From the NCBI RefSeq assembly GCF_026242055.1, contig NZ_JAPJDL010000010.1, positions 124,001 through 188,000 of the forward strand: 64,000 nucleotides of DNA, in the 5' to 3' direction. Below the pieces are notes generated by a model. That model did not search any database. It was not told where the DNA came from and saw nothing but the letters and a program-made list of their open reading frames with translations. Numbering within the stretch: the first letter of the stretch is position 1; each line of letters opens with the position of its first letter. A program made the translations under genes and the position numbers. Source of the stretch: Lentzea sp. NEAU-D7 (GTDB taxonomy: Bacteria; Actinomycetota; Actinomycetes; Mycobacteriales; Pseudonocardiaceae). Of the stretch, positions 13,517-26,993 are shown one piece after another.

Positions 13517-13737
13517 AGCCGACCAAAGTCACGAACTCCATCCGTGCGCTGCGGTTCGCGCACGGCGAGATGAAGCAGGCCGACCTCGCCGCGGCCATCG
13601 GCGTGACGCGGCAGACGCTGATCGCCATCGAGCAGGGCAAGTACTCGCCCTCGCTGGAGGTGGCGTTCAAGATCGCCCGCGCGTTCGGGGTGTCGCTCGA
13701 AGAGGTGTTCCAGTACCCGGAGGAGGAAGAGCTGTGA
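13513..13737 (+). CDS. Short Xre-type HTH regulator
   Basis: A 74-residue protein that is almost entirely one helix-turn-helix domain: MKQADLAAAIGVTRQTLIAIEQGKYSPSLEVAFKIARAF, the YozG-like group of mini-regulators that often pair with a membrane protein. The acidic C terminus is short (YPEEEEL). GTGA overlaps link it to the membrane protein before it and the dehydrogenase after it. It most likely binds the two dyads in front of the operon. Confidence 0.92.
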   Translation: MKPTKVTNSIRALRFAHGEMKQADLAAAIGVTRQTLIAIEQGKYSPSLEVAFKIARAFGVSLEEVFQYPEEEEL

Positions 13738-14678
13738 AGGCTGTCGTGCAACGAAGATACGGATCGGCGGTGTTCGGTGACCTCGATGTGCCTGTGCCTG
13801 GGCAGGGCGAGGTTCTGCTGGAGGTGCGGGCGGCGGGCGTCGACATGGGCGTCTGGCACCTGCTCACCGGCAAGCCGTACCTGCTGCGGTTCCTCGGTTT
13901 CGGGGTCCGCGGGCCGAAGTCACCGGTGCCCGGACGGGACGTCGCCGGTGTGGTGAGGGAGATCGGGCCCGGCGTGACCGCGTTCGCGGTCGGCGACGAG
14001 GTGTTCGGCACCTGCGAGGGGTCGTTCGCCGAGTACGCCGTCGCCCCGGTCGCACGGCTGGCGCGCAGGCCGGAGGGGACCTCGTTCACGGAGGCGGCCG
14101 CGATGCCGATCTCGGGCGGGACGGCGCTGCAGGGCCTGCGCGGAGTTCAACCGGGGCAACGGGTCCTGGTGCTCGGCGCGGGTGGGGGCGTCGGGTCGTT
14201 CGGGGTCCAGATCGCGAAAGCCCTCGGCGCACACGTGACCGGTGTGTGCAGCACGAGCAAGGTCGACCTGGTGCGCTCACTGGGCGCCGACGAGGTCTTC
14301 GACTACACCGTCGCGGACTTCACCGGCACCTACGACCTGATCCTGGACTGCGGCGGCGCCAGGCCGTTGTCCAGGTTGCGCCGAGCCACCAACGAACGCG
14401 GCAGGATCGTCCTGGTCGGCGCGGAGACCGGGGGCTCGATCACGGGCGGTTTCCACAAGTCGCTGGGCTCGCTCTTGCTGAACCCGTTCTCGTCCAAGAA
14501 GTTCGTCCCGCTGATGTCCACCGAACGCGCCGACGTCTTCGACGAGCTGCGCGTGCTCGCCGAGGCGGGCTCGGTGAAAGCCGCCGTGGGCGAGGTCTTC
14601 CCGCTGTCCGAAGCGCTCGGTGCGGTGGACCACGTCTACTCGCGGCGGTCCGCCGGCAAGACGGTCGTCACGATCTGA
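13734..14678 (+). CDS. MDR-family NAD(P)-dependent dehydrogenase/reductase
   Basis: A 314-residue medium-chain dehydrogenase/reductase. The N-terminal GroES-like part includes PGRDVAGVVREIGPGVTAFAVGDEVFG, and the Rossmann part has VLGAGGGVGSFGVQIAK. There is no GHE zinc motif and no structural zinc cluster, so it belongs to the zinc-free quinone-reductase-like branch. It is the third gene of the membrane protein-HTH operon. The start GTG overlaps the HTH stop, with an AGGAGGA RBS in the HTH tail. Its 3' end overlaps the convergent amidohydrolase gene by 43 bases. Confidence 0.9.
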   Translation: MKAVVQRRYGSAVFGDLDVPVPGQGEVLLEVRAAGVDMGVWHLLTGKPYLLRFLGFGVRGPKSPVPGRDVAGVVREIGPGVTAFAVGDEVFGTCEGSFAEYAVAPVARLARRPEGTSFTEAAAMPISGGTALQGLRGVQPGQRVLVLGAGGGVGSFGVQIAKALGAHVTGVCSTSKVDLVRSLGADEVFDYTVADFTGTYDLILDCGGARPLSRLRRATNERGRIVLVGAETGGSITGGFHKSLGSLLLNPFSSKKFVPLMSTERADVFDELRVLAEAGSVKAAVGEVFPLSEALGAVDHVYSRRSAGKTVVTI

Positions 14679-15817
14679 CCTCCGATCACCACGGTCGTCA
14701 CGTGGTGCAACGCCGTGATGTCCCGCACGGGATCCCCCTGCACGGCGATGACGTCCGCATCCCAGCCGGGCTTCAGCACGCCCTTGCTCACGCCGCACGC
14801 CCTGGCGGCCTGGCTGGTCGCGCTCGCCAGCACGGCGATGTTCGGGATGCCCGCCTTGACGAGGTCCTGCATCGCGTGGGCAATGATCCCGTGTGGTTTG
14901 CCCGCGCCGATACCACCGTCCGTGCCGGACACCGTGCGCACGCCGTGGTCGTACATGCGTCCGGCGACGGCGATCTTCGCGGCCATGGACATCCCCATGC
15001 GGTCGAACGCCTCCTTGATGTGAGGAGGCGGTTCCATCGTGGCGCCGAGCGTGTGGCAGACGGCGATGCCGGCCTCCGCCAGCGCGTCCACCAGATCGGC
15101 GGGGACGACCATGGCACCGCCGGACAGGCACGTGCAGTGCTCGATGCCGTCCACACCGGCGGCCACGGCGTGCTGGACGGCCCGGAGGCTGTGGGCGTGC
15201 GCGGTCACCGGGAGGCCCAGCGAGTGGGCCTCCTCGACCACCACGCGCAGGTCGTGCTCGGTGAACTGGCAGTCGTCGACGATCGTGCCGGGGGTGGCGA
15301 ACCCGCCGCTGGCCATGATCTTGACGACGTCGACGTTGCGCTCGGCTCTGGCGCGCACGGCCTGGCGGAGCGCGTCGTCACCGGACGCTTCACCGCCCAT
15401 CGACCAGCAGTGACCGCGCGGGCTGGTGATGGGCGGCCCGGAGGCGAGAACGCGTTGCCGGTGCTTCGAGCGCTGCTCCACAACGGACCACTCGCGGTCA
15501 CCCAGGTCGCGGACCGTGGTCACGCCTGCCCTGAGGTGGCGGTCGAGGCTGTCCCTGATCACCTCGTCGAGGTGCTCGGGTGTGAAGCCGGGCAGGCGGT
15601 CCAGCGCGCCGTTCTCGCTGTCCGCGCACAGGTGGACGTGGGTGTCGATCAGTCCGGGCAGGACGGTGGCGGTGCCGAGGTCGACCACCTCGGCACCGGC
15701 GACCTCGGGACGCCCCTGCTCGACGGCCTTGATCTTCCCGGCCTCGACGAGGACCGTGACGGGGCCCGGAACGGACCTCTCACCGTCGAACGCACGCCCT
15801 GCCCGCAGCGCCAGCAT
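14636..15817 (-). CDS. Amidohydrolase (imidazolonepropionase/prolidase-like)
   Basis: A 393-residue metal-dependent hydrolase of the amidohydrolase superfamily. Metal ligands are visible: His60 and His62 (GLIDTHVHL), the likely carboxylated Lys166 (VDVVKIMASGG), His207 and His227, and Asp300 (SGTDGG). The small beta-sandwich is formed by both termini (LKPGWDADVIAVQGDP). The substrate is unknown; this branch includes Xaa-Pro dipeptidases and ochratoxinase-like enzymes. No signal peptide is seen. It converges on the MDR gene. Confidence 0.9.
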   Translation of the reverse strand: MLALRAGRAFDGERSVPGPVTVLVEAGKIKAVEQGRPEVAGAEVVDLGTATVLPGLIDTHVHLCADSENGALDRLPGFTPEHLDEVIRDSLDRHLRAGVTTVRDLGDREWSVVEQRSKHRQRVLASGPPITSPRGHCWSMGGEASGDDALRQAVRARAERNVDVVKIMASGGFATPGTIVDDCQFTEHDLRVVVEEAHSLGLPVTAHAHSLRAVQHAVAAGVDGIEHCTCLSGGAMVVPADLVDALAEAGIAVCHTLGATMEPPPHIKEAFDRMGMSMAAKIAVAGRMYDHGVRTVSGTDGGIGAGKPHGIIAHAMQDLVKAGIPNIAVLASATSQAARACGVSKGVLKPGWDADVIAVQGDPVRDITALHHVTTVVIGGQIVTTVLPADRRE

Positions 15818-15855: not shown

Positions 15856-16491
15856 TCAGCGGGCATGCGGCAGCGTCGTGAACTCCTCGACCTGGGGCAG
15901 GTCGTGACCGAGCCGGTCCCGCTTCGCCGTCAGGTACGCGATGTTGTGCGCGTTGGGGGTCATCAGCGACGGCACGCGCGCGGTCACCGAGATCCCGTGC
16001 GACTCCAGCGCCGCGATCTTGTCCGGGTTGTTGGACATCAGCCGCACGGACTGCACGCGCAGGTGCTTGAGCACGCGAGCCGCGGGGGAGTAGTCGCGGA
16101 TGTCCACGGGCAGGCCGAGCGACGTGGCCGAGTCCAACGTGTCCAGTCCCTCGTCCTGCAGCACGTGGGTGCGGATCTTCGACACCAGGCCGATTCCACG
16201 CCCCTCGTGTCCGCGCAGGTAGACGAGGATGCCGCTGCCTTCGCGCACGATCGTGTTCAGCGCGGCGTCGAGCTGTTCACCGCACTCGCAGCGCATGGCG
16301 GCGAAGATGTCGCCGGTCATGCACTCGGAGTGGATGCGCACGAGGACGTTCTCGCGCAGCTTCGTCTTGCCGTACACCAGGGCCATGTGCTCGTGGCCGT
16401 CCGCGCGGAACGCGACTGCGCGGAAGGTGCCACGCCGTGTCACCAGATCGGACTCCGCCACGTCTTCGTCGTTGAAGGCCTGTTCGAACAT
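15856..16491 (-). CDS. GTP cyclohydrolase II paralogue, Tyr-to-His variant
   Basis: A 211-residue GTP cyclohydrolase II. The zinc ligands Cys57, Cys68 and Cys70 (HSECMTGDIFAAMRCECG) and the GTP-binding RGHEGRGIGL are intact. It lacks the DHBP synthase domain of riboflavin RibBA. At the position of E. coli Tyr105 (KIRAYALQD) it has His109 (KIRTHVLQD). That Tyr is replaced in the S. coelicolor paralogue SCO6655, which stops at the formylated product FAPy, so this enzyme may also release FAPy. It is divergent from the PTPS-fold gene with 92 bases between starts, placing it at the head of the cluster. Start at the ATG following GGGGACCGGAG. Confidence 0.93.
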   Translation of the reverse strand: MFEQAFNDEDVAESDLVTRRGTFRAVAFRADGHEHMALVYGKTKLRENVLVRIHSECMTGDIFAAMRCECGEQLDAALNTIVREGSGILVYLRGHEGRGIGLVSKIRTHVLQDEGLDTLDSATSLGLPVDIRDYSPAARVLKHLRVQSVRLMSNNPDKIAALESHGISVTARVPSLMTPNAHNIAYLTAKRDRLGHDLPQVEEFTTLPHAR

Positions 16492-16583
16492 CTCCGGTCC
16501 CCTTGTCGCCAGGCGCCTTCCGAACGTGCAGCTACGCTCGGATGGAGGTCGCACCGTAACCCGACCGCACAGCGGAGGTCATC

Positions 16584-16994
16584 CTGTTCAGCATCACCGT
16601 TCGCGATCACGTGATGATCGCCCACAGTTTCCGCGGCGAGGTCTTCGGTCCAGCACAACGTCTCCATGGAGCAACGTTCGTGGTGGACGCAACGTTCAAA
16701 CGGGCTGAGCTCGATTCGGACAACATCGTCGTCGACATCGGACTCGCCACCCAGGAGCTGAACAAGGTCCTGGCCGCTTTCAACTACCGCAACCTGGACG
16801 AAGAACCCCAGTTCGCGGGCATCAACACCTCCACGGAGTGGCTCGCGAAACACATCGCGGACCAGCTCGCGGACAAGATCTCCGAGGGCGCTCTGGGTGA
16901 GGGCGCTCACGGGATCGATGCGATCGCCGTCACACTTCACGAGTCGCATGTGGCGTGGGCGGGCTACGAACGTGCACTTCGTCCTTCCGGCTGA
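16584..16994 (+). CDS. Divergent 6-pyruvoyl-tetrahydropterin synthase-fold protein
   Basis: A 136-residue T-fold protein of the PTPS/QueD family ([17 protein letters not shown] at the start, [10 protein letters not shown] at the end). Several family catalytic residues are missing: the Cys loop reads GPAQ, the HGH zinc pair reads HGA, and the DH of DHxxLN reads NY (FNYRNLDE). A new reaction or a binding role is likely. The best start is a CTG five bases after CGGAGG, because the residues FSITVRDH after it match the family N terminus; GTG at 16611 would delete them. The 3' end overlaps the glycosyltransferase start by 23 bases. Confidence 0.85.
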
Positions 16995-17943
16995 CGTCGG
17001 AGATCCGGGCAGTCCCAGTGGCGGCAACGTCTACGACCTGCGCGTGAGCGCCGGCCTGAACCGTCTGCTCGTCGCTGGCGACTGGCCGATTCCGAGCGAC
17101 GCCACCGCGTTGGAGCAAACGCTTGCGGCGATCCCGCACGGAGACGTCGTGCTCCTCGACGGCCTCGTGAGTTGCGGCTTACCCCAAATCGTCGTTCCTC
17201 ACACACGAAGATTGAACATCGCTGTCCTGGTGCACCTGCCGCTCGCCGACGAGACGGGTCTGGACGCCGGCACCGCACGCGACCTCGACGCGCGCGAAGG
17301 GCAGGTCCTGAGGGCCGCGAAGGCCGTCATCGCGACGAGCCCGACGGCCGCGCGCGAGATCGAGCGCAGGCACGGGCTCGACCACGTCCACGTCGTCGTC
17401 CCCGGCACCGACCCGGCACCGCTGGCGCACGGCACGGACGGCATCCACCACCTGCTCTGCGTCGCGTCCATCACACCCCGCAAAGGCCACGACCTGCTGC
17501 TCAGGGCGTTGCGGAGGATCGAACGCGACTGGCGGCTGACGTGCGCGGGCCCGCACCGGCCGTTCCTGCGCGAGCTTCCGCGAGACGACCGGGTCAGCTT
17601 TCCCGGACCGCTCGCCGGCGAGGCGCTGACCAGCGCGTACGCCAGTGCCGACCTCTTCGTGCTGGCCTCCCGCGCCGAGACCTACGGCATGGTCGTCACC
17701 GAGGCGCTCGCCCGCGGTCTGCCGGTCATCGCGAGCGCGGTCCCCGACGCCCTCGGCGACGGCGGCCTGCTCGTTCCCGCCGGGGACGAAAACGCGGTGG
17801 AAGCTGCACTGACACGCTGGTTCGAAGATCAAGACTTTCGGGCGGAACTGCGTGCGAAGGCGCTCGCGCGGCGAGCCGTTCTGTCCACTTGGGACGAATC
17901 CACAGAGGACCTGCGGAGGGTGCTGGCTACGCTCCGGCCATGA
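16972..17943 (+). CDS. GT4-type glycosyltransferase
   Basis: A 323-residue GT-B glycosyltransferase. The N-terminal domain is short but keeps a glycine-rich loop ([11 protein letters not shown]). The donor domain has [19 protein letters not shown] and the EX7E motif Glu236-Glu244 in [23 protein letters not shown], typical of retaining GT4 enzymes using nucleotide sugars. The GTG start lies inside the 3' end of the PTPS-fold gene and its stop overlaps the methyltransferase ATG, so it is translationally coupled within the cluster. The acceptor is unknown, perhaps the pyrimidine/pterin intermediate or a lipid. Confidence 0.9.
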
Positions 17944-18719
17944 CCTTCGCCCCGGAATGGCTGGCACTGCGTGAGAACGCCGACGCGACCGCGCGCTCGA
18001 CCGAGCTCGTGGACGTGGTCCGCGAAACTCTGGTGAACCGAAACCCCCTGACGATCCGTGACCTCGGTTGTGGCACGGGATCGATGGGACGATGGCTCGC
18101 CGGGAGGCTCGGCGGCGTGCAGCACTGGGTGCTGCACGACCGCGACCCCCGGCTGCTCGGGCTGGCGGAGGCCAGCGTGAGCGCGCTGGAGAACGTCACC
18201 GCCGAGACGCGTGAGGGCGACCTCACGGCCCTGAAGGCCGCCGACCTCGCGGGCGCCGACCTCGTCACCTGCTCCGCCCTGCTCGACCTGCTCACCGCCG
18301 AAGAGATGAACGCTCTGGCACTGGCCTGCGTAGAAGCTCATGTGCCCGCACTGTTCACGCTCTCGGTGGCAGGCCGGATCGACATCGATCCGGCCGAGCC
18401 GCTCGACGCCGCCTTCCAGGACGCGTTCAACGCCCACCAGCGTCGCGTCGTGGACGGGCGTCGTCTGCTCGGACCTGACGCACCCGCCGCCGCCGAAGAG
18501 GCGTTCGTGGCGGCCGGAGCTTCGGTTCGAACGGCTCAGAGCCCCTGGCGCATGAATGCCGACGACCTCCAGCGGGAATGGCTGAAGGGCTGGGTCGGCG
18601 CCGCGGTGGAGCAGGAACCCTCACTCGCCCCTGAGGCCTCCGAGTACCTGCGCCGCAGGTCAACGGCCTCCGTGGCGGTCCACCACGTCGACCTGCTGGC
18701 ACTACCGGGAGCTGTGTGA
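17940..18719 (+). CDS. Class I SAM-dependent methyltransferase
   Basis: A 259-residue Rossmann-fold methyltransferase. Motif I is IRDLGCGTGSMG (residues 39-50), the acidic motif II region reads WVLHDRDPRLLGLA and ADLVTCSALLDLLTAEEM forms motifs III/IV. It is linked by ATGA to the glycosyltransferase before it and by TGATG to the membrane protein after it. The substrate cannot be read from the sequence; the cluster suggests a methylated, glycosylated GTP-derived compound. Confidence 0.9.
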   Translation: MTFAPEWLALRENADATARSTELVDVVRETLVNRNPLTIRDLGCGTGSMGRWLAGRLGGVQHWVLHDRDPRLLGLAEASVSALENVTAETREGDLTALKAADLAGADLVTCSALLDLLTAEEMNALALACVEAHVPALFTLSVAGRIDIDPAEPLDAAFQDAFNAHQRRVVDGRRLLGPDAPAAAEEAFVAAGASVRTAQSPWRMNADDLQREWLKGWVGAAVEQEPSLAPEASEYLRRRSTASVAVHHVDLLALPGAV

Positions 18720-19681
18720 TGAAGAAGTTCTGGCCGTGGCTCCGCCTGGTGCTGGCGTTGGGCATCCTGGTCGCTCTGGGCGTGCGCCTGGGCACCGGGG
18801 CGTTCGTCGACGGACTGCGCGCGATCGACGCGTTCTCCGTGGCCGCCGCACTGGCGATCGGGCTCGTGACGACGGTGCTCAGCGCGGGTCGCTGGGTCCT
18901 CGTCGCGCGCCGCCTCGGCCTGCCGCTGACCCTGCGCACCGCGGTCAGCGACTACTACCGCGCCCAGCTCGTCAACGCCGTGCTGCCCGCGGGCGTGCTC
19001 GGCGACGTGCACCGCGCGGTGAACCACGGCCGTGAGTCGGGCGACGTCGGACGGGGCGTGCGCGCCGTGTTCTTCGAGCGCTTCGCCGGCCAGGTCGTGC
19101 TCATCGGGATCGGGCTCGCGGTGCTGCTCACGCACCCCGCGCCCGGCCTCGACCTGGCGCCGGACGGCACCACCGCCGCGCTGGTCCTCGCCGGTCTGGC
19201 CGTCCTGACCGCCGCCGGCTGGAACATCCGGCCGGTGCGCCGGGCGCTGGTCAACACCCTCGCGGACGGCATCAGGCTGCTGTCGCTGCGGACCTGGCCG
19301 GCCGTCATCGGGCTGTCGGCCGCCACGGTCGCGGGCTACGTCGCGATGTTCCTGGTGGCGGCCCGCGCCGCCGGGTCGGACGCGACGGTCACCCAGCTCG
19401 CGCCGGTCGTCGTGCTGGCGCTGCTGATCATGGCGATCCCGGTCAACATCGGCGGGTTCGGCCCGCGCGAGGCGTTCCTCGCGGTGGCGTTCGGCGCCGC
19501 CGGTCTGGGCGCCGCGCAGGGCTTCACCACGGGCATCGTCTACGGCGTGCTCGCGCTCATCGCCGCGCTGCCCGGCGCGGTCGTGCTGTTCCTCTCACGC
19601 CGTGCCAAGACCGAACAGGTCGAGGTAGTGGCGGAAGGACTCGGCCAGCCCCGCGAGCAGGAGCTCGCCCTTGCGCGCTGA
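18719..19681 (+). CDS. LPG-synthase-TM-like (flippase-type) membrane protein
   Basis: A 320-residue polytopic protein of the lysylphosphatidylglycerol synthase TM region/UPF0104 family, with about eight TM helices and the family signatures DYYRAQLVNAVLPAGVLGDVHRAV and AIPVNIGGFGPREAFLAVAFG. Relatives occur with glycosyltransferases and are thought to move lipid-linked products. The last 29 codons overlap the convergent creatininase-family gene by 87 bases. In this cluster it may translocate the final, possibly lipid-linked product. Confidence 0.88.
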   Translation: MKKFWPWLRLVLALGILVALGVRLGTGAFVDGLRAIDAFSVAAALAIGLVTTVLSAGRWVLVARRLGLPLTLRTAVSDYYRAQLVNAVLPAGVLGDVHRAVNHGRESGDVGRGVRAVFFERFAGQVVLIGIGLAVLLTHPAPGLDLAPDGTTAALVLAGLAVLTAAGWNIRPVRRALVNTLADGIRLLSLRTWPAVIGLSAATVAGYVAMFLVAARAAGSDATVTQLAPVVVLALLIMAIPVNIGGFGPREAFLAVAFGAAGLGAAQGFTTGIVYGVLALIAALPGAVVLFLSRRAKTEQVEVVAEGLGQPREQELALAR

Positions 19682-20287
19682 CGCGAGTGACGGACGCCCG
19701 ATGACGCCGGAGGACGTGTACGGCGCCAGACCCAGGGTGAGCATGTGCCGCCGGTCCTCCGCCAGGTGGTCAGAGGTCTCGTAGCCGGGACGGATCAGAT
19801 CGGGGTGCGCGTGCAGCAGGATCGAGGTCTCCAGCTCGCCCGCGTGCATGTCGCTGTAGGCCGAGGTCTCGATGCCGGCCTTCTCCCGGGCGAACGCCCA
19901 GTCGTCCCGGCCGGGGAACAGTGCCAGGCCCTCGCCCTCCTGCACGATGTTGGACAGCACGTAGTTGCCGCCGTGGCCGTTGACCAGCACCACGTTCGTG
20001 ACTCCGTTGCGCCGCAGGGACTCCGCGATGTCCGTGACCACTGAGATCAGCGTGCGGGCGGAGATGCTGACGGTCCCCGGCCAGTCGGCGTGCTCCTGCG
20101 AGCACGAGAACTGGATCGGCGGCAGCAGCCGGACCGGGTACCTCGCGGCGATCTCCGACGCGATCGTCCACGCGATCACCGAGTCCGTGGCCAGCGGCAG
20201 GTGCGGGCCGTGCTGCTCGGTGCTGCCGACCGGGAGCACGGCCACGCTCCTGCCGCGGACGTCGACCGTGGTGTCACTCGGGAACAT
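19595..20287 (-). CDS. Creatininase-family amidohydrolase, ArfB-like
   Basis: A 230-residue metal-dependent amidohydrolase of the creatininase family, which includes creatininase, MftE and the archaeal FAPy deformylase ArfB. Metal-site residues are visible: Glu24 and His26 (GSTEQHGPHLPL), Asp35, NGHGGN at 103-108, and His148/Glu151 (MHAGELETS). Next to a GTP cyclohydrolase II that may stop at FAPy, FAPy deformylation is the most economical role. The ATG at 20287 overlaps the dehydrogenase gene upstream by 14 bases; an in-frame TTG at 20305 is an alternative. The 3' end overlaps the flippase-like gene by 87 bases. Confidence 0.88.
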   Translation of the reverse strand: MFPSDTTVDVRGRSVAVLPVGSTEQHGPHLPLATDSVIAWTIASEIAARYPVRLLPPIQFSCSQEHADWPGTVSISARTLISVVTDIAESLRRNGVTNVVLVNGHGGNYVLSNIVQEGEGLALFPGRDDWAFAREKAGIETSAYSDMHAGELETSILLHAHPDLIRPGYETSDHLAEDRRHMLTLGLAPYTSSGVIGRPSLASARKGELLLAGLAESFRHYLDLFGLGTA

Positions 20288-21251
20288 GACCCTGACCGTA
20301 GTCAATCCGGTGGCACAGCGCCGGAATCTCGCCGTTCGCGAGCTTCGGCATGACGTCGGGGAGCTCCTCGAACGCGCTGTGGCCCGTGACCAGCGCGTCG
20401 AACCTGTCGTCGGCCAGCAGGTCGAGCGCGACCGCCATGCGTTCGGCGTAGGTGCGGTCCGGGCGGCCGACCGCGCCGACCTGGCTGCTGCGGATCGTCA
20501 GCCGGCGCGAGTGGAAGAACTCGCCCAGCGGCACGGAGATCTTCCTGTCGCCGTACCAGCTCAGCTCGATCACGCGGCCTTCCGGCGCGAGCAGGTCGAG
20601 AGCCGTGGTGAGACCCGCTTCGGTCGCACTGGCGTGGAAGACGAGGTCGCAGCCGTCGAGGGCGTCGCCCGGCAGGGCGAAGCCGACACCGAGCTTCCGC
20701 GCGACCTCCTCCCGAGCCGGATCGGCGTCCACGAGCTCGACGCGGGCGCCGGGGAACGTGGCGAGCACCGCCGCGATGCTCGACCCGACCATGCCGCCAC
20801 CGACCACCGCGATCCGGTCGCCGATCAGCGGGCGCGCGTCCCACACGGCGTTGACCGCGGTCTCGACCGTGCCCGCCAGTACCGCCCGCGAAGCCGGCAC
20901 CGCGTCGGGCACGAGCGTGACCGAGGTTTCCGGCACCACGTAACGGGTCTGGTGTGGATAGAGGCAGAACACCGTGCGCCCGCGCAGGTCCCCGTGTTCG
21001 ACGACGCCCACGTTGAGGTACCCGTACTTGACCGGCCACGGGAAGTCGCCCTCCTGGAAGGGAGCCCTCATCACCGCGTACTGGTTCTCCGGCACACCAC
21101 CGCGGAACACGAGGGTCTCCGTGCCCCGGCTGACGCCCGAGAACAGCGTGCGCACCTCGACCTCACCCGGACCGGGTTCGGGCAGCGCGACCTGCCGGAC
21201 TTCCCCATTTCCGGATTCATTGAGCCAAAAGGCACTCGCCGTACGTGTCAC
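20274..21251 (-). CDS. MDR-family dehydrogenase, BchC-like
   Basis: A 325-residue medium-chain dehydrogenase with the SGVSRGTETLVFRG segment typical of the BchC-like/zinc-binding alcohol dehydrogenase-related branch, and a Rossmann loop IAVVGGGMVGSSIAAVLA. The classical catalytic Cys and structural zinc cluster are absent. It is the first gene of the leftward pair dehydrogenase-creatininase, and its start is 41 bases from that of the divergent CDP-alcohol phosphatidyltransferase. It could oxidise or reduce a side-chain alcohol/carbonyl of the pathway product. Confidence 0.88.
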   Translation of the reverse strand: MTRTASAFWLNESGNGEVRQVALPEPGPGEVEVRTLFSGVSRGTETLVFRGGVPENQYAVMRAPFQEGDFPWPVKYGYLNVGVVEHGDLRGRTVFCLYPHQTRYVVPETSVTLVPDAVPASRAVLAGTVETAVNAVWDARPLIGDRIAVVGGGMVGSSIAAVLATFPGARVELVDADPAREEVARKLGVGFALPGDALDGCDLVFHASATEAGLTTALDLLAPEGRVIELSWYGDRKISVPLGEFFHSRRLTIRSSQVGAVGRPDRTYAERMAVALDLLADDRFDALVTGHSAFEELPDVMPKLANGEIPALCHRIDYGQGHVPE

Positions 21252-21292
21252 TCACAACACCTCCGCCGCACGAAGTTCGTTAGGGGCACCTG

Positions 21293-22027
21293 ATGATCAC
21301 ACTTCAGCACACCAGGACACCCGTCGTCGTACGGGAGCCTGCCGCCTGGGCCGCCGCCCAGGTGCTCCTGCTGGCTGTGGTGGGTGCCACCACCGGCCTG
21401 GGACTGCTCGGCTGGGCCGCCGGTCTCGCCTACGGGTTCGCCACGTGGGCGTTCCTCGGCTACGGCATGCAACGCCATCGCACCAGCTCACTGGGCCCCG
21501 CCGACCGCGTCACGCTCGCGCGCGGCCTCATGGTCGGCGCGGTGACCGCCCTGGTCGCGGACCGCGCCGGGCAGGACGTGCCGGTCGCGCTGGTCGTGAC
21601 GCTGGCGGCCGTCGCGCTGTCACTCGACTGGGTCGACGGTCAGGTCGCCCGCCGCACGGGCACCTCGACCGCGCTGGGCGCCCGGTTCGACATGGAGGTC
21701 GACGCCTTCCTCATCCTGGTGCTGAGCGCCTACGTGGCCGTGCACATGGGTCCGTGGGTGCTCGCGATCGGGCTCATGCGGTACGTGTTCGTCGCCGCCT
21801 CCTGGCGTCTGCGCTGGATGAACGCGCCGCTGCCCGCCAGCTACGCCCGCAAGGTCGTGGCCGCGGTCCAGGGGATCTTCCTCGTGGTGGCGGCGTCCGG
21901 CCTGCTGCCGTTCGCGGGTGTCCTCGTCGGTCTCGCGCTGGCATCGCTCGTGTGGTCGTTCGGTCGCGATGTGCTCTGGCTGTGGACCAACGCGGCCGTT
22001 CCGGTGGGAGAATCCCGCCATGCCTGA
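21293..22027 (+). CDS. CDP-alcohol phosphatidyltransferase
   Basis: A 244-residue membrane enzyme with the complete CDP-alcohol phosphotransferase signature: D-V-D-G-Q-V-A-R, eight residues, then G-A-R-F-D-M-E-V-D, where the four Asp bind the catalytic metals. About six TM helices surround it. Such enzymes join a phosphatidyl or similar group from a CDP-activated donor to an alcohol. In this cluster it suggests that the product, or its carrier, is phospholipid-linked. Its stop overlaps the DoxX-like start by eight bases. Confidence 0.93.
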   Translation: MITLQHTRTPVVVREPAAWAAAQVLLLAVVGATTGLGLLGWAAGLAYGFATWAFLGYGMQRHRTSSLGPADRVTLARGLMVGAVTALVADRAGQDVPVALVVTLAAVALSLDWVDGQVARRTGTSTALGARFDMEVDAFLILVLSAYVAVHMGPWVLAIGLMRYVFVAASWRLRWMNAPLPASYARKVVAAVQGIFLVVAASGLLPFAGVLVGLALASLVWSFGRDVLWLWTNAAVPVGESRHA

Positions 22028-22421
22028 GCAGACCTCAACCGCGGCGAAGATCGGCAACATCGTCGTCTGGATCCTGCAGATCGTGCTCGCCGTGCAGTTC
22101 GTGATGAACGGCTACGCGCTGTTCACCGACTCGTTCGTCGCCAAGTTCGACGACATCGGCTTCGGTCAGTGGTTCCGCTACTTCACCGGCGTGCTGGAGA
22201 TCGGCACCGCTATCGGCCTGCTCATCCCGCCCATCTGCGGCCTCGCGGCGCTGGGGCTCGCGGGCATCATGGCCGGCGCGGCGCTGACCGAGCTGTTGCT
22301 CGTCACCAACGGCGGCTTCGACGACGCGATGATGCCGCTGATCTTCATGGTGTGGGCGCTGGTGATCGCGGTCTACCGCCGCGAACAGATCTTCGGTGCG
22401 CTCAGGCTCGTCCGGAAGTGA
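22020..22421 (+). CDS. DoxX-like membrane protein
   Basis: A 133-residue protein with four TM helices of the DoxX/DoxD-like fold (WILQIVLAVQFVMNGYALF, GVLEIGTAIGLLIPP, LIFMVWALVIAVY). DoxX-like proteins are quinone-linked or scaffold proteins of varied function. It is translationally coupled to the phosphatidyltransferase and its 3' end overlaps the convergent RibD-type gene by 20 bases, so it is in the cluster physically; its role is unknown. Confidence 0.85.
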   Translation: MPEQTSTAAKIGNIVVWILQIVLAVQFVMNGYALFTDSFVAKFDDIGFGQWFRYFTGVLEIGTAIGLLIPPICGLAALGLAGIMAGAALTELLLVTNGGFDDAMMPLIFMVWALVIAVYRREQIFGALRLVRK

Positions 22422-23064
22422 CTTTCGGGAAGTAGCGGAGCACCGCGACGTCCCCGACTTTCGTGACGTCCTCCAGGTGGAATCGGCGTGCCGGTCCACC
22501 GGGGAATTCGGCGGGATTCACGAAACGCGGGGCCGTTGCCTGTCCGATCAGCATCGGTGCCACCGCCACCCGGATCTCGTCGGCCAGTCCGGCTTCGAGG
22601 AACGCCGTGTGAATGCTCGTGCCGCCTTCGACCATGAGCTTTCTCACCCCGCGCGAGCCGAGATCGTCCAGAATCTCCGAGAATTCGCTGAAGGTCTTCG
22701 TCTCGGTGAGATGACCGACCGTGGTCTCCGGCGTGCGCGAGTACACCAGGGTGGCGCCGCCGCAGTGCCAGAACCGCAGCTCAGGGTCCAGATCGCCGCT
22801 TCTGGTGACGGTGACGCGCAACGGGAACTCGGGTTTGCCTTCGGCTGTTCTGCGCGCGCGCCGCTCTTCGCTGTAGACGAGCAGTCGCGCGTTGTCCCGG
22901 CGCAGCGTCTCGGCTCCCGCCAGAATGGCGTCCGACTCCGCGCGCATCCGGTCGACGTGGTCGAAGTCCTCGGCGTTCGAAAGAGGAAACCTCTCGGTGC
23001 CGCGATCGTCGATGTGGCCGTCGAGGCTGACGGCGACGCTGAGCAGAACGTGCGGGCGGGTCAC
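22402..23064 (-). CDS. RibD C-terminal (DHFR-like) reductase
   Basis: A 220-residue stand-alone reductase of the RibD C-terminal family: start VTRPHVLLSVAVSLDGHIDD, the nucleotide-binding DAILAGAETLRRDNARLLVY and the ending VRKLMVEGGTSIHTAFLEAGLADE. These enzymes reduce the ribosyl group of the pyrimidine formed from GTP, or act as dihydrofolate-type reductases. Beside a GTP cyclohydrolase II and a FAPy-deformylase-like gene it fits the third step of a riboflavin-like pathway branch. The GTG at 23064 is chosen because family sequences begin there. Confidence 0.9.
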   Translation of the reverse strand: MTRPHVLLSVAVSLDGHIDDRGTERFPLSNAEDFDHVDRMRAESDAILAGAETLRRDNARLLVYSEERRARRTAEGKPEFPLRVTVTRSGDLDPELRFWHCGGATLVYSRTPETTVGHLTETKTFSEFSEILDDLGSRGVRKLMVEGGTSIHTAFLEAGLADEIRVAVAPMLIGQATAPRFVNPAEFPGGPARRFHLEDVTKVGDVAVLRYFPKVTSGRA

Positions 23065-23142
23065 GAACCCGATCGTAGAGCAGTTGAACCGGTCGCGTGC
23101 CGCGCCGCGTTTACCCCATAGGATCTGGAAAGGGGATTCTCG

Positions 23143-24723
23143 GTGAGGATGTTGCTGCGGCGGACGGTCACGGTCCTGGCGGGGCTGTTCGTGTTGTTCG
23201 TGCTCATCGCACCGAGCGACCTGGAGAAGTTCTCGTTCGAGGCGTTCCTGCGGGTGCCGCTCGAAGGCCTCGTCGGCGTGCTGGTGCTGGTGCTGCTGCC
23301 CGACCGGATCCGCAAGCCCGCCGCCATCATCGGTGGTGTCGCGCTGGGCCTGTTCGCGGTCGTCAAGATCATGGACATCGGCTTCGACGTGGTGCTGTAC
23401 CGGCCGTTCGACCTCGTGCTGGACTGGCCGCTGCTGGTGCCCGCCATCGACTTCGTGGACGTGACGTTCGGCCGCTTCGCCTCCGTTCTCGCCGTGGGCC
23501 TCGCGGTCGCGCTGGTCGCCGGGATCGTGTTCGTCGCGGCGATCTCCGTGCAGCGCCTCGGTTCTGTCGCCGCCGGACGGCGTCCCGTCGCGATCCGGGC
23601 GGTGGCCGCGGCGGTCGTGGTGTGCGTTTCCCTTGCCGTGCCAGGAGTTCCGGTCTACTCCGACGCCGCCGCGACGTCGCTGGTCGACCACGCGCGGCGC
23701 GTCCAGGCCGGGCTGAACGACCGGGAGGTGTTCGCGGCGGAGGCGTCGGTCGACGCGTTCCGCGGTCGCCCCGGGCTGCTGTCCTCGTTGCAGGGCAAGG
23801 ACGTCGTCTTCACGTTCGTGGAGAGCTACGGCAAGTCCGCGCTGGACATGCCGGACGTCGCCGCGAAGCTGGCGCAGGGCGACGACCGGCTGAAGAAGGC
23901 CGGGTACTCGGCCCGCTCGGCGTACCTGACCTCGCCCACCGCCGGCGGTGGCAGCTGGATGGCGCAGGCGACGCTGCTGTCCGGGCTGTGGATCGACAAC
24001 CAGCAGCGGTACCGCAACCTCGTGGCCTCCGACCGGCTGACGCTGCCGCGCGCGTTCCGCGAGTCGTCGTGGCGGTCGGTCGGTGTCGTCCCCGGCATCA
24101 CGCAGGCGTGGCCGGAAGGCGACTTCTTCCACTACGACAAGATCTACGCCGCCCAGGACCTCGGCTACGAGGGCCCGCGGTTCGGGTACGCGACCACGCC
24201 CGACCAGTTCACGCTGGAGTCGTTCCAGCGCAACGAGCGCGCGAAGGCCCACGGCCCGGTGATGGCGGCGATCCCGATGGTGTCCTCGCACGCGCCGTGG
24301 TCGCCGACCCCGGACTCCGTGGACTGGGAGGACCTCGGCGACGGCTCGGTCTACTCGACGATGCCCGCCTCGAACGACCCGCCGGAGTCGATCTTCGGCC
24401 GCGACCCGGCGGCCGTGCGCGCCGACTACGCGCACTCCATCTCGTACTCGCTGGAGTCCGTGGTCTCCTACCTGGAGCGGTACGGCGACGAGAACCTGGT
24501 GATGGTGTTCCTCGGCGACCACCAGCCGGCGCAGATGGTGACCGGCGAGGGGGCGTCGCGGGACGTGCCGATCACCGTCGTCGCCAAGGACCCGGCCGTG
24601 ATGGCGGAGGTCGAGGCCTGGAAGTGGGACGACGGGATCAAGCCGGGAGGGTCGGCCCCGGTGTCGCGGATGAGCGACTTCCGGGACCAGTTCCTCTCGG
24701 CCTTCTCGCCGCCCGAGGCCTGA
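23143..24723 (+). CDS. Membrane sulfatase/LTA-synthase-like hydrolase
   Basis: A 526-residue protein with about five N-terminal TM helices (residues 5-175) and an extracytoplasmic alkaline-phosphatase-superfamily domain. The nucleophile region reads DVVFTFVESYGKSALD, and the second metal site is VMVFLGDHQPAQMV; both occur in lipoteichoic-acid-synthase-like phosphotransferases and related sulfatases. It starts at GTG after AGGGGA. It could transfer or remove a phospho-alcohol group at the cell surface and may belong functionally with the CDP-alcohol phosphatidyltransferase. Its stop abuts that of the convergent DinB gene. Confidence 0.85.
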   Translation: MRMLLRRTVTVLAGLFVLFVLIAPSDLEKFSFEAFLRVPLEGLVGVLVLVLLPDRIRKPAAIIGGVALGLFAVVKIMDIGFDVVLYRPFDLVLDWPLLVPAIDFVDVTFGRFASVLAVGLAVALVAGIVFVAAISVQRLGSVAAGRRPVAIRAVAAAVVVCVSLAVPGVPVYSDAAATSLVDHARRVQAGLNDREVFAAEASVDAFRGRPGLLSSLQGKDVVFTFVESYGKSALDMPDVAAKLAQGDDRLKKAGYSARSAYLTSPTAGGGSWMAQATLLSGLWIDNQQRYRNLVASDRLTLPRAFRESSWRSVGVVPGITQAWPEGDFFHYDKIYAAQDLGYEGPRFGYATTPDQFTLESFQRNERAKAHGPVMAAIPMVSSHAPWSPTPDSVDWEDLGDGSVYSTMPASNDPPESIFGRDPAAVRADYAHSISYSLESVVSYLERYGDENLVMVFLGDHQPAQMVTGEGASRDVPITVVAKDPAVMAEVEAWKWDDGIKPGGSAPVSRMSDFRDQFLSAFSPPEA

Positions 24724-25242
24724 TCAGCCCATGGTCTTCTGACCGTCGATCGTCTCGCGGATGATGTCCGCGTGGCCCGCGTGCTGCGAGGTCTCCGCGA
24801 CGATGTGCACGAACACCCGCCGCGCCGACCACGTCTTGCCCTCCGGGAACCACGGGGCGGCCGGCAGCGGGTGCGAGAGGTCCATGTCGACCGTCTCGAC
24901 CAGCTTGTCGGTGTGGGCCGCGACCTCGTTGTAGCGGGCGATGATGCTCTCCAGCGTCTCGCCCGGCTCCATCCGGAAGTTCGCCTCGTGGTTCTCGTAG
25001 TCCTGCGACTCGGGGTCGGACTCCATCGCCGAGGTGCCGTGCTCGATGAACTTGACCCAGTTCTCCTCGACCGACGCGACGTGCTTGATCAGACCGCCGA
25101 TGCTCAGCGCGCTCGCGGTCGGGCTCGACGCCGCCTGCTCGTCGCTCAGGCCCTGCGCGGTGAACGTCAGGAACCAGCGGTGCTGCCGCAGGGTCTCGAG
25201 GAGGTCCGCGCGCTCGCCGGTGAGGATCTCGGTGGTGGTCAT
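24724..25242 (-). CDS. DinB-family protein (DUF664)
   Basis: A 172-residue four-helix-bundle protein of the DinB/YfiT superfamily. Metal-binding histidines are apparent in GGLIKHVASVEENW and in RVFVHIVAETSQHAGHADIIRE. Actinobacterial members may be bacillithiol/mycothiol-dependent transferases, but the substrate of this one is unknown. It has no gap to the convergent membrane hydrolase gene. A second DinB protein lies at 26424. Confidence 0.9.
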   Translation of the reverse strand: MTTTEILTGERADLLETLRQHRWFLTFTAQGLSDEQAASSPTASALSIGGLIKHVASVEENWVKFIEHGTSAMESDPESQDYENHEANFRMEPGETLESIIARYNEVAAHTDKLVETVDMDLSHPLPAAPWFPEGKTWSARRVFVHIVAETSQHAGHADIIRETIDGQKTMG

Positions 25243-25696: not shown

Positions 25697-26413
25697 ATGC
25701 GTCTCGTCCTGTCCCTGCTCCTCGTGCTGACCGCGTGCTCGGCGGCGCCCGCCGACCCCGTGGCGCTGATCGACGGCTGGCGGGAGGTGATGCGGAAGCA
25801 GAAGTCGGTGCGGCTCGACGTCAGGACCGAGGTCGACGGCAAGCATCCGCGCACAGAGGCCTATGCCGGTGTGCTGCACTTCAGCTGGATGGGTGGCACA
25901 CCGCAGTGGGACGTGACCGCGCACGTCGAGAACAGGTACGGCACCACCGACTACCGCTCGATGAGAGTGCACGACGACGAGTACCTCAGCCACAGCGATC
26001 TCACCCTGCCGCCCGGCAAGGAGTTCTCCAGCATGGAGCTCAACGACGCGTTGTGGGTGGGCACGCTCTCCGTGGAGCTGTCCCTGGCCCAGCGCGAGTA
26101 CTCACCCAGCGGCGCGTTCAGCGAGATCGACCGCAAGACCGTCCGGCTCGTCGAGCACGACGGCGACCGGTACGTGTTCGCCGCGGGAGGGGTGCCGCAC
26201 TCGGGCGGCTTCACGGACGGCGACGTGCGGCTCGTCGTCGAGGTGGACGACGAGAACAGGCCGGTCCGGGTCGAGCGCAGCGCGCCGACCGTCGACGAGC
26301 AGACCGAGCGGTTCACCGCCGTGTACAGCCAGTGGGGAACCGCGCCGGACGTGCTGCGGCCGCCGCAGGAGGTCGTGGCGAAACCGAAGGACGTTGCCGC
26401 CCAACGGCGTTAG
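25697..26413 (+). CDS. Putative lipoprotein
   Basis: A 238-residue secreted protein with a short signal MRLVLSLLLVLTACS, where LTAC is a lipobox with Cys14. The mature part looks beta-rich (VRLDVRTEVDGK, LHFSWMGGTPQWDVT, DGDRYVFAAGG) and is reminiscent of the LolA/LppX-like lipoproteins of actinobacteria, but the family is not certain. It is followed 10 bases later by a DinB-family gene on the same strand. Confidence 0.82.
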   Translation: MRLVLSLLLVLTACSAAPADPVALIDGWREVMRKQKSVRLDVRTEVDGKHPRTEAYAGVLHFSWMGGTPQWDVTAHVENRYGTTDYRSMRVHDDEYLSHSDLTLPPGKEFSSMELNDALWVGTLSVELSLAQREYSPSGAFSEIDRKTVRLVEHDGDRYVFAAGGVPHSGGFTDGDVRLVVEVDDENRPVRVERSAPTVDEQTERFTAVYSQWGTAPDVLRPPQEVVAKPKDVAAQRR

Positions 26414-26423
26414 AGTCGGCGGC

Positions 26424-26993
26424 ATGATCGCCCACGACCTCCAGCGCTACCTCCAGGACTCGCGCGACTCGGTGCTGTCCTCTTTGGACGGACTCGGCGA
26501 GTACGACGTCCGGCGCCCGCTCGTGCCCAGCGGCACCAACCTGCTCGGCCTCGTGAAGCACCTGGTCGGCATCGAGTTCGGCTACCTCGGCGACAGCGCC
26601 GGCCGTCCGGCGCCGGTCACCCTGCCGTGGAACGAGGACGGATCGGTCTGGGAGAACGGCGACATGTGGGCCAAGCCTTCCGAGTCCCGCGAGTACCTCG
26701 TCGACCTGTACCGCCAGGCCTGGAAGCACACCGACGAGTCGATCGCGAGCCTGCCGCTGGACGCGCCGGCCTCGGTGGCCTGGTGGCCGGAGCACGAGCG
26801 GCAGACCACGTTCGGGCACCTGCTCGTCCGCGTCACGGCGGAGACCGCGCAGCACGCCGGGCACTGCGACGTCGTGCGCGAGCTGATCGACGGCCGGTCC
26901 GGCGCCGACAACCCCGACGGCTACTACGACCTGGTCCTGAGCATGGCGAGCGCACCGACCACCGGGCCGGGCACGAGCAGCAGGAACGCGTAG
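26424..26993 (+). CDS. DinB-family protein (DUF664)
   Basis: A 189-residue DinB/DUF664 protein (NLLGLVKHLVGIEFGYLGD, RVTAETAQHAGHCDVVRELIDG) with the family's three-histidine pattern. It is distinct from the DinB protein at 24724 in length and sequence. The last 70 bases overlap the 3' end of the convergent MFS gene, which is unusually long. Confidence 0.9.
   Translation: MIAHDLQRYLQDSRDSVLSSLDGLGEYDVRRPLVPSGTNLLGLVKHLVGIEFGYLGDSAGRPAPVTLPWNEDGSVWENGDMWAKPSESREYLVDLYRQAWKHTDESIASLPLDAPASVAWWPEHERQTTFGHLLVRVTAETAQHAGHCDVVRELIDGRSGADNPDGYYDLVLSMASAPTTGPGTSSRNA

Follow-up and report, generated by a model that had tools for sequence, protein, structure and literature searches.

The region examined here belongs to Lentzea sp. 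NEAU-D7 (GCF_026242055.1, contig NZ_JAPJDL010000010.1, positions 124,001-188,000), and this whole stretch of 64,000 nt is referred to as the window. Pfam and NCBIfam profiles, with which 18 window proteins were scanned, confirmed at positions 15856-24723 all eleven genes and the families that a preliminary description had given them (Table 1).

Table 1. The eleven genes, with positions in the window, strand and profile scores
Product	Positions	Strand	Profile match
GTP cyclohydrolase II (GCH II) paralogue	15856-16491	-	PF00925, 200 bits; zinc Cys motif retained
PTPS-fold (T-fold) protein, SCO6650 orthologue	16611-16994	+	PF01242, 77 bits
GT4-type glycosyltransferase, apparent core gene	16972-17943	+	PF13692, 96 bits
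Class I SAM methyltransferase (MT), accessory	17940-18719	+	PF13649, 36 bits
LPG_synthase_TM flippase-like membrane protein	18716-19681	+	PF03706, 104 bits
Creatininase-family amidohydrolase, proposed FAPy deformylase	19595-20305	-	PF02633, 211 bits
MDR dehydrogenase, BchC-like sequence, apparent core gene	20274-21251	-	Best NCBIfam TIGR01202, 37 bits (cut-off 291)
CDP-alcohol phosphatidyltransferase	21293-22027	+	PF01066, 51 bits
DoxX_2 (DoxX-like), probable passenger	22020-22421	+	PF13564, 49 bits
Stand-alone RibD_C reductase, archaeal type, apparent core gene	22402-23064	-	PF01872, 120 bits
Membrane alkaline-phosphatase-superfamily protein (AP)	23143-24723	+	PF00884, 25 bits, exactly at cut-off

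Features of the encoded proteins

The translated CDP-alcohol phosphatidyltransferase contains the full D-x2-DG-x2-AR-x8-G-x3-D-x3-D pattern, which we take to be the motif of its family. For the AP protein, the structural model (pLDDT 89.1) has LtaP/LtaS as its top folds (E 7e-11, TM about 0.4 on the query), suggesting an LtaS/EptA-like fold, and Glu227, Ser271, His383, Asp459 and His460 are invariant in 23 aligned rows; LtaS uses Thr. The MDR dehydrogenase lacks the N-terminal zinc Cys motif and carries an SRGTE motif, and its model (pLDDT 90.3) matches many kinds of MDR in a PDB fold search, beyond polyol dehydrogenases. PDB matches of the GT4 are 6kih and MshA- and PimA-type enzymes. The RibD_C reductase likewise has PDB matches, and its best NCBIfam match by E-value is TIGR01508 (117 bits, below the cut-off of 186).

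Members of the PTPS/QueD family use a zinc-binding His triad together with a catalytic Cys and His. The PTPS-like protein of the window, whose only PDB match is 3d7j (Streptomyces coelicolor SCO6650, E 1.4e-59), does have the predicted fold by PF01242, but departs from the family in lacking its usual catalytic residues: in alignments GPA replaces the Cys stretch and Tyr replaces the His. Its third zinc His has become Ala (HGA versus HGH), and the triad is broken in the PTPS-like proteins of all families except the most distant, f32. What it holds in common with PTPS/QueD is the Pfam fold and presumed pterin-anchoring Glu; Glu75 and Glu110, which we assume to be these anchors, are invariant in 12 rows, a conservation that would be compatible with an undeaminated 2-amino ring. 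In seven control loci the PTPS/QueD-like protein keeps both Cys and HGH, and MDR and GT4 are both absent there. For the phylum-wide tally of PTPS hits (74 of 396), counting every hit as this system was rejected as an overestimate, because the seven weaker hits that were fetched outside f32 and retain the Cys are without MDR and GT4.

Conservation across actinobacteria and an apparent four-gene core

A one-genome-per-species scan that started from the PTPS-like protein, the marker of the cluster, confirmed at least 576 loci, many of them in Streptomyces, of which the best 80 were kept, so that the sample is weighted to close relatives. Among these 80 best loci, MT was found in 80, MDR in 79, CDP-alcohol transferase in 78, GT4 in 77, the flippase-like protein in 76, GCH II in 69 and creatininase in 68, followed by RibD (19), AP (10) and DoxX (4). 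The co-occurrence predicted for actinobacteria was thus recovered, Streptomyces included, and the recurrence of most families in this sample exceeds a chance grouping. Judged by gene neighbourhood, ten of the eleven genes are members of a conserved actinobacterial cluster; DoxX, which had been counted among them, falls outside the conserved set given its presence in only 4 of the 80. Three genes close by were rejected as pathway members, namely an amidohydrolase (14636-15817, matches in 3 of the 80 loci), a second MDR (13716-14678, 5 of 80) and an MST gene (24724-25242, 3 of 80). Across the wider set, MT is missing from the loci of several lineages, and inositol-monophosphatase or PHP genes are present in some loci.

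The genes for RibD and AP are frequently unlinked from the cluster. An archaeal-type reductase at E 1e-25 was nevertheless found in 57 of the 58 genomes that encode the PTPS-like protein (all but G050) and in 16 of the 142 that do not, a tally combining two counts of 200 genomes that bear the same handles and are assumed to be the identical set; the Fisher p of 5e-34 takes no account of kinship and serves for description only. In 17 further cluster genomes with the reductase outside the locus, the match was strong in 15, split in G928 and weak in G207. By comparison, its co-occurrence with the cluster thus extends to genomes in which the gene lies elsewhere.

Most Streptomyces loci share the order CDP-alcohol transferase, MDR, PTPS, GT4, MT, flippase, creatininase, GCH II. 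Compared with them the Lentzea cluster is rearranged, contains the reductase and AP within it, and has a His-type instead of a Met-type GCH II. The Lentzea PTPS-like protein is the orthologue of SCO6650 (3D7J), and counting locus tags from there along the Streptomyces order puts GCH II at SCO6655, a gene annotated as GCH II. The route had been described as matching no known pathway. Among the open-licence papers listed by the literature searches, none names a product or pathway in its title or the opening of its abstract, but the SCO6650 structure and the SCO6655 annotation do exist. To our knowledge, these two S. coelicolor proteins were studied singly, with no pathway given.

RibD, MDR, PTPS and GT4 share gene order and strand in 15 of the 16 loci of f32, the farthest family, and the sixteenth (L217) is truncated by a contig end. 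These four genes form the apparent core of the cluster, small enough for reconstitution. Lipid genes were not detected in the 16 f32 loci, so attachment to a lipid, originally put forward as a step of the route, would at most be a trait of other lineages. Four more loci (L151-L154, of which L152 and L153 are short) have the core genes with no CDP-alcohol transferase, flippase or AP detected, and AP lies outside the locus or is missing in many cluster genomes. All this would suit two unrelated neighbouring modules, in which the core, with GCH II and creatininase, makes a soluble pyrimidine or pterin glycoside and the CDP-alcohol transferase, flippase-like and LtaS-fold proteins serve some other membrane-lipid function. 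Such a split is possible, yet we doubt it, since CDP-alcohol transferase and flippase, present in 78 and 76 of the 80 best loci, stay beside the same partners despite many rearrangements.

The cyclohydrolase residue and the creatininase

The GCH II of the window has the fold (PF00925) and the zinc Cys motif, its Cys residues aligning with those of E. coli 2bz0, and carries His in place of E. coli Tyr105, a Tyr that we take to be required for the full, deformylating GCH II reaction. Among 108 cluster copies, 89 have Met, His, Leu or Gln at this site (67 of them Met, Streptomyces copies included) and 19 have Tyr. Outside the clusters, eight genomes provided 12 copies, of which 11 have Tyr and the twelfth is degenerate at the site. 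Creatininase lies in the locus for 88 of the 89 Tyr-less copies, and for the remaining copy it lies in that genome 3.5 kb beyond the stretch fetched. It is absent from all 19 Tyr-type loci, from all 33 loci without GCH II (a weak 43-bit match at L043 being scored as none), and from three further Tyr-type loci (L214, L223, L227). Once contig-end loci were filtered out (15 of 140 dropped, window included, L145 scored by its creatininase outside the fetched stretch), 84 rows had both a Tyr-less GCH II and a creatininase, 42 had neither and none was discordant. In ten genomes with neither at the locus, all 15 full-length GCH II copies are of Tyr type and two extra hits are fragments. One genome speaks against the association: G918, which contains L057, encodes a 59% creatininase at another site, and its only GCH II is of Tyr type.

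How often this association arose is a separate matter. On the GCH II tree, with non-cluster copies assigned as lacking creatininase by assumption, Tyr loss and creatininase gain are one single change. The cluster tree, edge loci dropped, has six changes each of GCH II type and creatininase (six and five with L057 scored by whole genome), with one independent pair on well supported branches and no significant sign test. It replaces an earlier tree that gave 7 joint changes and, on starred branches, 4 independent pairs, but in which two of the changes depended on loci truncated at a contig end (L103, L121).

A FAPy (formamidopyrimidine)-forming GCH II dependent on a separate deformylase would give this pattern, and we propose that the window GCH II stops at FAPy and that the creatininase is the FAPy deformylase. 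The GCH II residue would then predict whether a separate deformylase is present, the enzyme being dispensable where the cluster GCH II has Tyr or where the sole GCH II, of Tyr type, sits elsewhere. Spoonamore et al. are said to have reported in 2006 FAPy-only activity for the Tyr-less paralogue SCO6655. The suggested passage from GTP through FAPy to deformylation has its best support in this tie of the creatininase to Tyr-less GCH II, a comparative result with one origin on the GCH II tree.

The creatininase conserves residues aligned with 1q3k that presumably act as metal ligands, and against the curated ArfB profile it scores 39 bits (cut-off 180). Its best NCBIfam match is MftE, which raises the alternative of a peptidase for a mycofactocin-type peptide cofactor, with the GCH II link reflecting mere shared ancestry, as the single origin on the enzyme tree would allow. 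We consider this very unlikely: the MftE score of 139.6 bits is below the cut-off of 172, no radical SAM gene occurs among the 18 window proteins scanned (small precursor peptides being outside that scan), and creatininase keeps away from precisely the Tyr-type and GCH II-less loci.

A proposed route from GTP towards a glycosylated product

We consider it probable (roughly 60%), on comparative sequence evidence, that the cluster encodes a biosynthetic pathway drawing GTP through a GCH II unable to complete its reaction. The Tyr-less GCH II would open GTP to a FAPy nucleotide, the creatininase would strip off its formyl group and leave 2,5-diamino-6-ribosylamino-4(3H)-pyrimidinone 5'-phosphate, and the archaeal-type RibD reductase would turn the ribosyl into a ribityl chain. 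Since genes and residue co-occur as described, this succession from GTP to FAPy, diaminopyrimidine and ribityl compound is supported by comparison, which puts the first three reactions in a definite order. From the observed genes, motifs, synteny and co-occurrence we infer the individual reactions, the sequence of steps beyond the reductase and the connection to a lipid.

The same FAPy formation, deformylation and reduction, before deamination, belong to the archaeal riboflavin/F420 front end (ArfA/MptA-type cyclohydrolase, ArfB and archaeal reductase), and the cluster could, in place of making a new product, be an additional way into riboflavin or F420 in archaeal style, feeding the ordinary pathway. 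A review describes a FAPy-forming cyclohydrolase and a formamide hydrolase for archaeal and Sinorhizobium riboflavin synthesis, and the Lentzea reductase is of archaeal type. The Lentzea set differs from the archaeal front end in that its cyclohydrolase has the GCH II fold and its creatininase is well below the ArfB cut-off. Against a second entry, the Lentzea genome has a separate GCH II of Tyr type. This copy sits in a 439-aa frame, and weak RibD_C hits precede it by 1.3-1.8 kb on its contig, as in an ordinary riboflavin locus. Deaminase, lumazine synthase and riboflavin synthase are all absent from the eleven genes, which continue instead into MDR, T-fold protein and GT4, three genes that this explanation does not account for. 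We judge it unlikely. Still less credible, and in our view highly improbable, is a non-biosynthetic role in clearing damaged GTP or FAPy nucleotides: by their families the GCH II paralogue, deformylase and reductase would act on opened guanine nucleotides, but glycosyltransferase, MDR, methyltransferase and membrane genes are conserved with them, and SCO6652, the methyltransferase by locus-tag counting, rises strongly in second-mycelium stages.

Beyond the reductase, the biosynthetic reading would have the T-fold protein keep the 2-amino-4-oxo ring in place as the MDR works on the polyol chain, at a secondary alcohol or a ketone, and GT4 would attach a sugar. In most loci of the class Actinomycetes, the product would then be methylated and handled at the membrane by the CDP-alcohol transferase, the flippase-like protein and the LtaS-fold hydrolase. 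A passage of PMC13118837, considered as a synteny precedent for the CDP-alcohol transferase, deals with a teichoic-acid region and was set aside.

GTP cyclohydrolase I makes the 7,8-dihydroneopterin skeleton by an Amadori rearrangement. Tentatively, and with more doubt than belief, the parts may be read jointly as a redox bypass of that enzyme, a second pterin route ending in a glycosylated, membrane-anchored pterin; here closure of the ring and attachment of sugar and lipid are inferred steps. After formation of the ribityl chain, the BchC-like MDR would oxidise the C2' hydroxyl to a ketone, on which the 5-amino group would close with help from the pterin-binding T-fold protein, yielding 7,8-dihydroneopterin 3'-phosphate. 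Phosphatases (inositol-monophosphatase or PHP), GT4 and methyltransferase would tailor the pterin, joined in class Actinomycetes by the CDP-alcohol transferase, and the membrane-anchored product might serve aerial growth or spores. If the idea of ring closure is true, it would constitute a second way of making pterins. For the membrane genes we know of no counterpart in cyanobacterial pterin glycoside systems of the cyanopterin type, where the pterin comes from GTP cyclohydrolase I and not, as proposed here, from GCH II intermediates; a pterin-like ring and a glycosyltransferase would be common to both.

Distribution of the cluster

The cluster is real and widespread. Family scans recovered all eleven genes of the preliminary description, each in the family proposed for it, between 15856 and 24723 of the window, and translation of the CDP-alcohol phosphatidyltransferase (CDP) gene revealed a complete catalytic motif. 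The host genome measures 9.3 Mb; its nearest named relative in the species scan was Lentzea californiensis, whose PTPS-like protein is 100% identical. At E 1e-3 this protein was matched in 59/200 genomes of the order, 59/394 of the class and 74/396 of the phylum, the last tally including ordinary PTPS/QueD-like proteins. When named species were scanned with it, at least 576 relatives were confirmed; the best 80, which were retained, come chiefly from Streptomyces, plus Amycolatopsis, Pseudonocardia, Actinomadura and others. The predicted co-occurrence across actinobacteria was borne out among these best 80 loci, which carry genes for the methyltransferase (80), MDR dehydrogenase (79), CDP (78), GT4 glycosyltransferase (77), flippase (76), GTP cyclohydrolase II (GCH II; 69), creatininase (68), RibD-type reductase (19), alkaline-phosphatase-superfamily protein (AP; 10) and DoxX (4).

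The same gene set, rearranged or reduced, was found in 20 loci of the order and 40 more. In loci L151-L153, two of them short (L152 and L153), MDR, PTPS and GT4 were the only cluster genes detected. Two Amycolatopsis loci, L083 (A. rubida) and L085 (A. dendrobii), keep CDP, MDR, PTPS and methyltransferase, with GT4, flippase, GCH II and creatininase unmatched within 10 kb. L033, L034, L115 and L164 have an additional GT4 homologue close to where creatininase and GCH II lie at the cluster's end, with 43-45% identity to the window GT4 in the first three.

Features in and around the cluster, and a GCH II paralogue elsewhere in the genome
Feature	Position	Strand	Remark
Amidohydrolase gene	14636-15817	-	Separated from GCH II by about 40 bases, same strand; matched in just 3 of the best 80 of at least 576 related loci, all Lentzea
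PTPS-like protein	16611-16994	+	T-fold marker of the cluster
DinB-type gene	24724-25242	-	Just beyond cluster; mycothiol-S-transferase by Pfam (PF04978)
DinB-type gene	26394-26993	+	Just beyond cluster; resembles its DinB-type neighbour, judged by eye
Third GCH II paralogue (L186)	G000:C1:314111-314596		Own genome, outside cluster; Tyr type, 242-aa frame; contig differs from that of ordinary GCH II

SCO6648-SCO6655 is probably the S. coelicolor counterpart, because SCO6650 is the PTPS-like protein and counting along the Streptomyces gene order gives SCO6655 as GCH II, in agreement with its annotation. Tag counting from SCO6650 likewise puts the methyltransferase at SCO6652. SCO6652 is up by about 4 log2 units in second mycelium (48 and 72 h) relative to first mycelium (Table 3, PMC3610822), a rise that hints at aerial growth or sporulation. 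Searches of open-licence literature listed no paper whose title or opening abstract lines name a product of the cluster.

GCH II and creatininase

The window GCH II keeps its zinc cysteines and has His at the position of E. coli RibA Tyr105 (alignment to 2bz0). GCH II is present in 108 of the 140 loci plus the window, with Met (67), His (18), Leu (3), Gln (1) or Tyr (19) at this position. Creatininase lies inside the examined stretch for 88 of the 89 non-Tyr enzymes, and the lone exception, L145, has a 60% identical creatininase 3.5 kb beyond it. None was found in the 19 loci with Tyr-type GCH II, the 33 loci without GCH II, or three later loci with the Tyr type. Among non-cluster GCH II copies of eight genomes, 11/12 have Tyr and the twelfth is degenerate. 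Ten genomes with neither gene in the locus yielded 15 full-length GCH II, every one of the Tyr type, and two fragments. In nine of these genomes no creatininase exceeds 41% identity; the exception, G918, has a creatininase at 59% but lacks a Tyr-less GCH II. Residues of the window creatininase that align with the 1q3k metal ligands are conserved.

In a 66-row GCH II tree, Tyr loss and creatininase gain each require one change, on the same branch; we therefore infer a single origin, after which both traits were retained jointly while the residue varied among Met, His, Leu and Gln. In an 82-row tree of MDR, PTPS and GT4, built after 15 of the 140 loci had been dropped for lying close to a contig end, each trait changes six times (6 and 5 when L057 is scored by genome) with no discordant rows. 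Just one independent pair has good branch support, too few to claim significance. Seven changes and four supported pairs had been counted on an earlier tree of 106 rows, two of the changes coming from loci truncated at contig ends.

Archaea have a deformylase of the creatininase family. Spoonamore et al. reportedly found in 2006 that SCO6655, with Met replacing Tyr, produces the formamidopyrimidine nucleotide (FAPy). A GCH II forming FAPy only would need a deformylase. The three Streptomyces GCH II isogenes are reported to differ in activity, and a review describes formamide-hydrolase routes for archaea and Sinorhizobium.

Four-gene core and PTPS-like protein

In f32, a distant family, 15 of 16 loci have RibD, MDR, PTPS and GT4 in this order on a single strand; in the sixteenth, L217, GT4 is absent at the contig end. 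Among these loci, L214 alone also has GCH II, of the Tyr type. CDP, flippase, methyltransferase, AP and creatininase were all undetected in these 16 loci. Attachment to a lipid, proposed for the cluster product, is thus not a general feature. Neither MDR nor GT4 was found in seven control loci, drawn from other families, in which PTPS has retained its catalytic Cys; in one of them, L223, a weak RibD and, several kb off, a Tyr-type GCH II are present.

The sole PDB sequence match of the PTPS-like protein was SCO6650 (3D7J), for which the 2008 structure paper reportedly describes a pterin-like pocket but neither zinc, a catalytic triad nor PTPS activity. Across 12 diverse aligned rows, Ala replaces Cys, Tyr occupies what we take to be the catalytic His position, and Glu75 and Glu110 are invariant. 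The zinc motif, HGH in f32, HGA in other families and HGV in L154, perhaps records a stepwise loss. In canonical PTPS, Glu anchors the 2-amino-4-oxo ring; if it does so here, the substrate would be undeaminated.

Proposed pathway and candidate enzymes

Comparison supports a sequence in which GTP would be converted to FAPy, deformylated and reduced to 2,5-diamino-6-ribitylamino-4(3H)-pyrimidinone 5'-phosphate. MDR, the T-fold protein and GT4 would act next; one chemically direct idea is that, once C2' is oxidized, ring closure by the 5-amino group would give 7,8-dihydroneopterin 3'-phosphate.

The stand-alone RibD_C protein scored best with the archaeal reductase model, below that model's cut-off. 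A RibD-type reductase (E 1e-25) occurs in 57/58 order genomes with the PTPS-like protein (59 minus one match at 6e-4) versus 16/142 without. Seventeen further cluster genomes (15 of them with the locus examined and no reductase in it; G222 and G522 are the other two) have the reductase elsewhere: strong in 15, split in G928 and only weak in G207.

The MDR model (pLDDT 90.3) matched 702 PDB chains at E 0.001, including threonine, sorbitol and xylitol dehydrogenases (TM on query 0.77-0.80), and many other MDR enzymes score similarly. The protein has no zinc Cys motif at its N-terminus, and among family models it scores best with BchC, a secondary-alcohol dehydrogenase. For AP (pLDDT 89.1), the closest folds were LtaP/LtaS, then EptA-type enzymes; a search of 13 other cluster genomes detected AP homologues (44-50%) in eight and none in the other five.

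An inositol-monophosphatase-family gene, a possible pathway phosphatase, is present in 11 of 160 loci searched (L031, directly after GCH II, and L032, L033, L034, L055, L058, L115, L137, L141, L163 and L164). Homologues of the PHP-domain gene of L167 occur in 12/160 loci: ten of these are among the 16 f32 loci (70-100%) and two are controls (38 and 28%). In f32 the gene sits downstream of GT4, at a distance of about 1 to 3 kb (L167-L170, L208, L210, L212, L214, L216 and L219). In L167-L170 a conserved gene comes after it, weakly matching the alanyl-tRNA-synthetase type.
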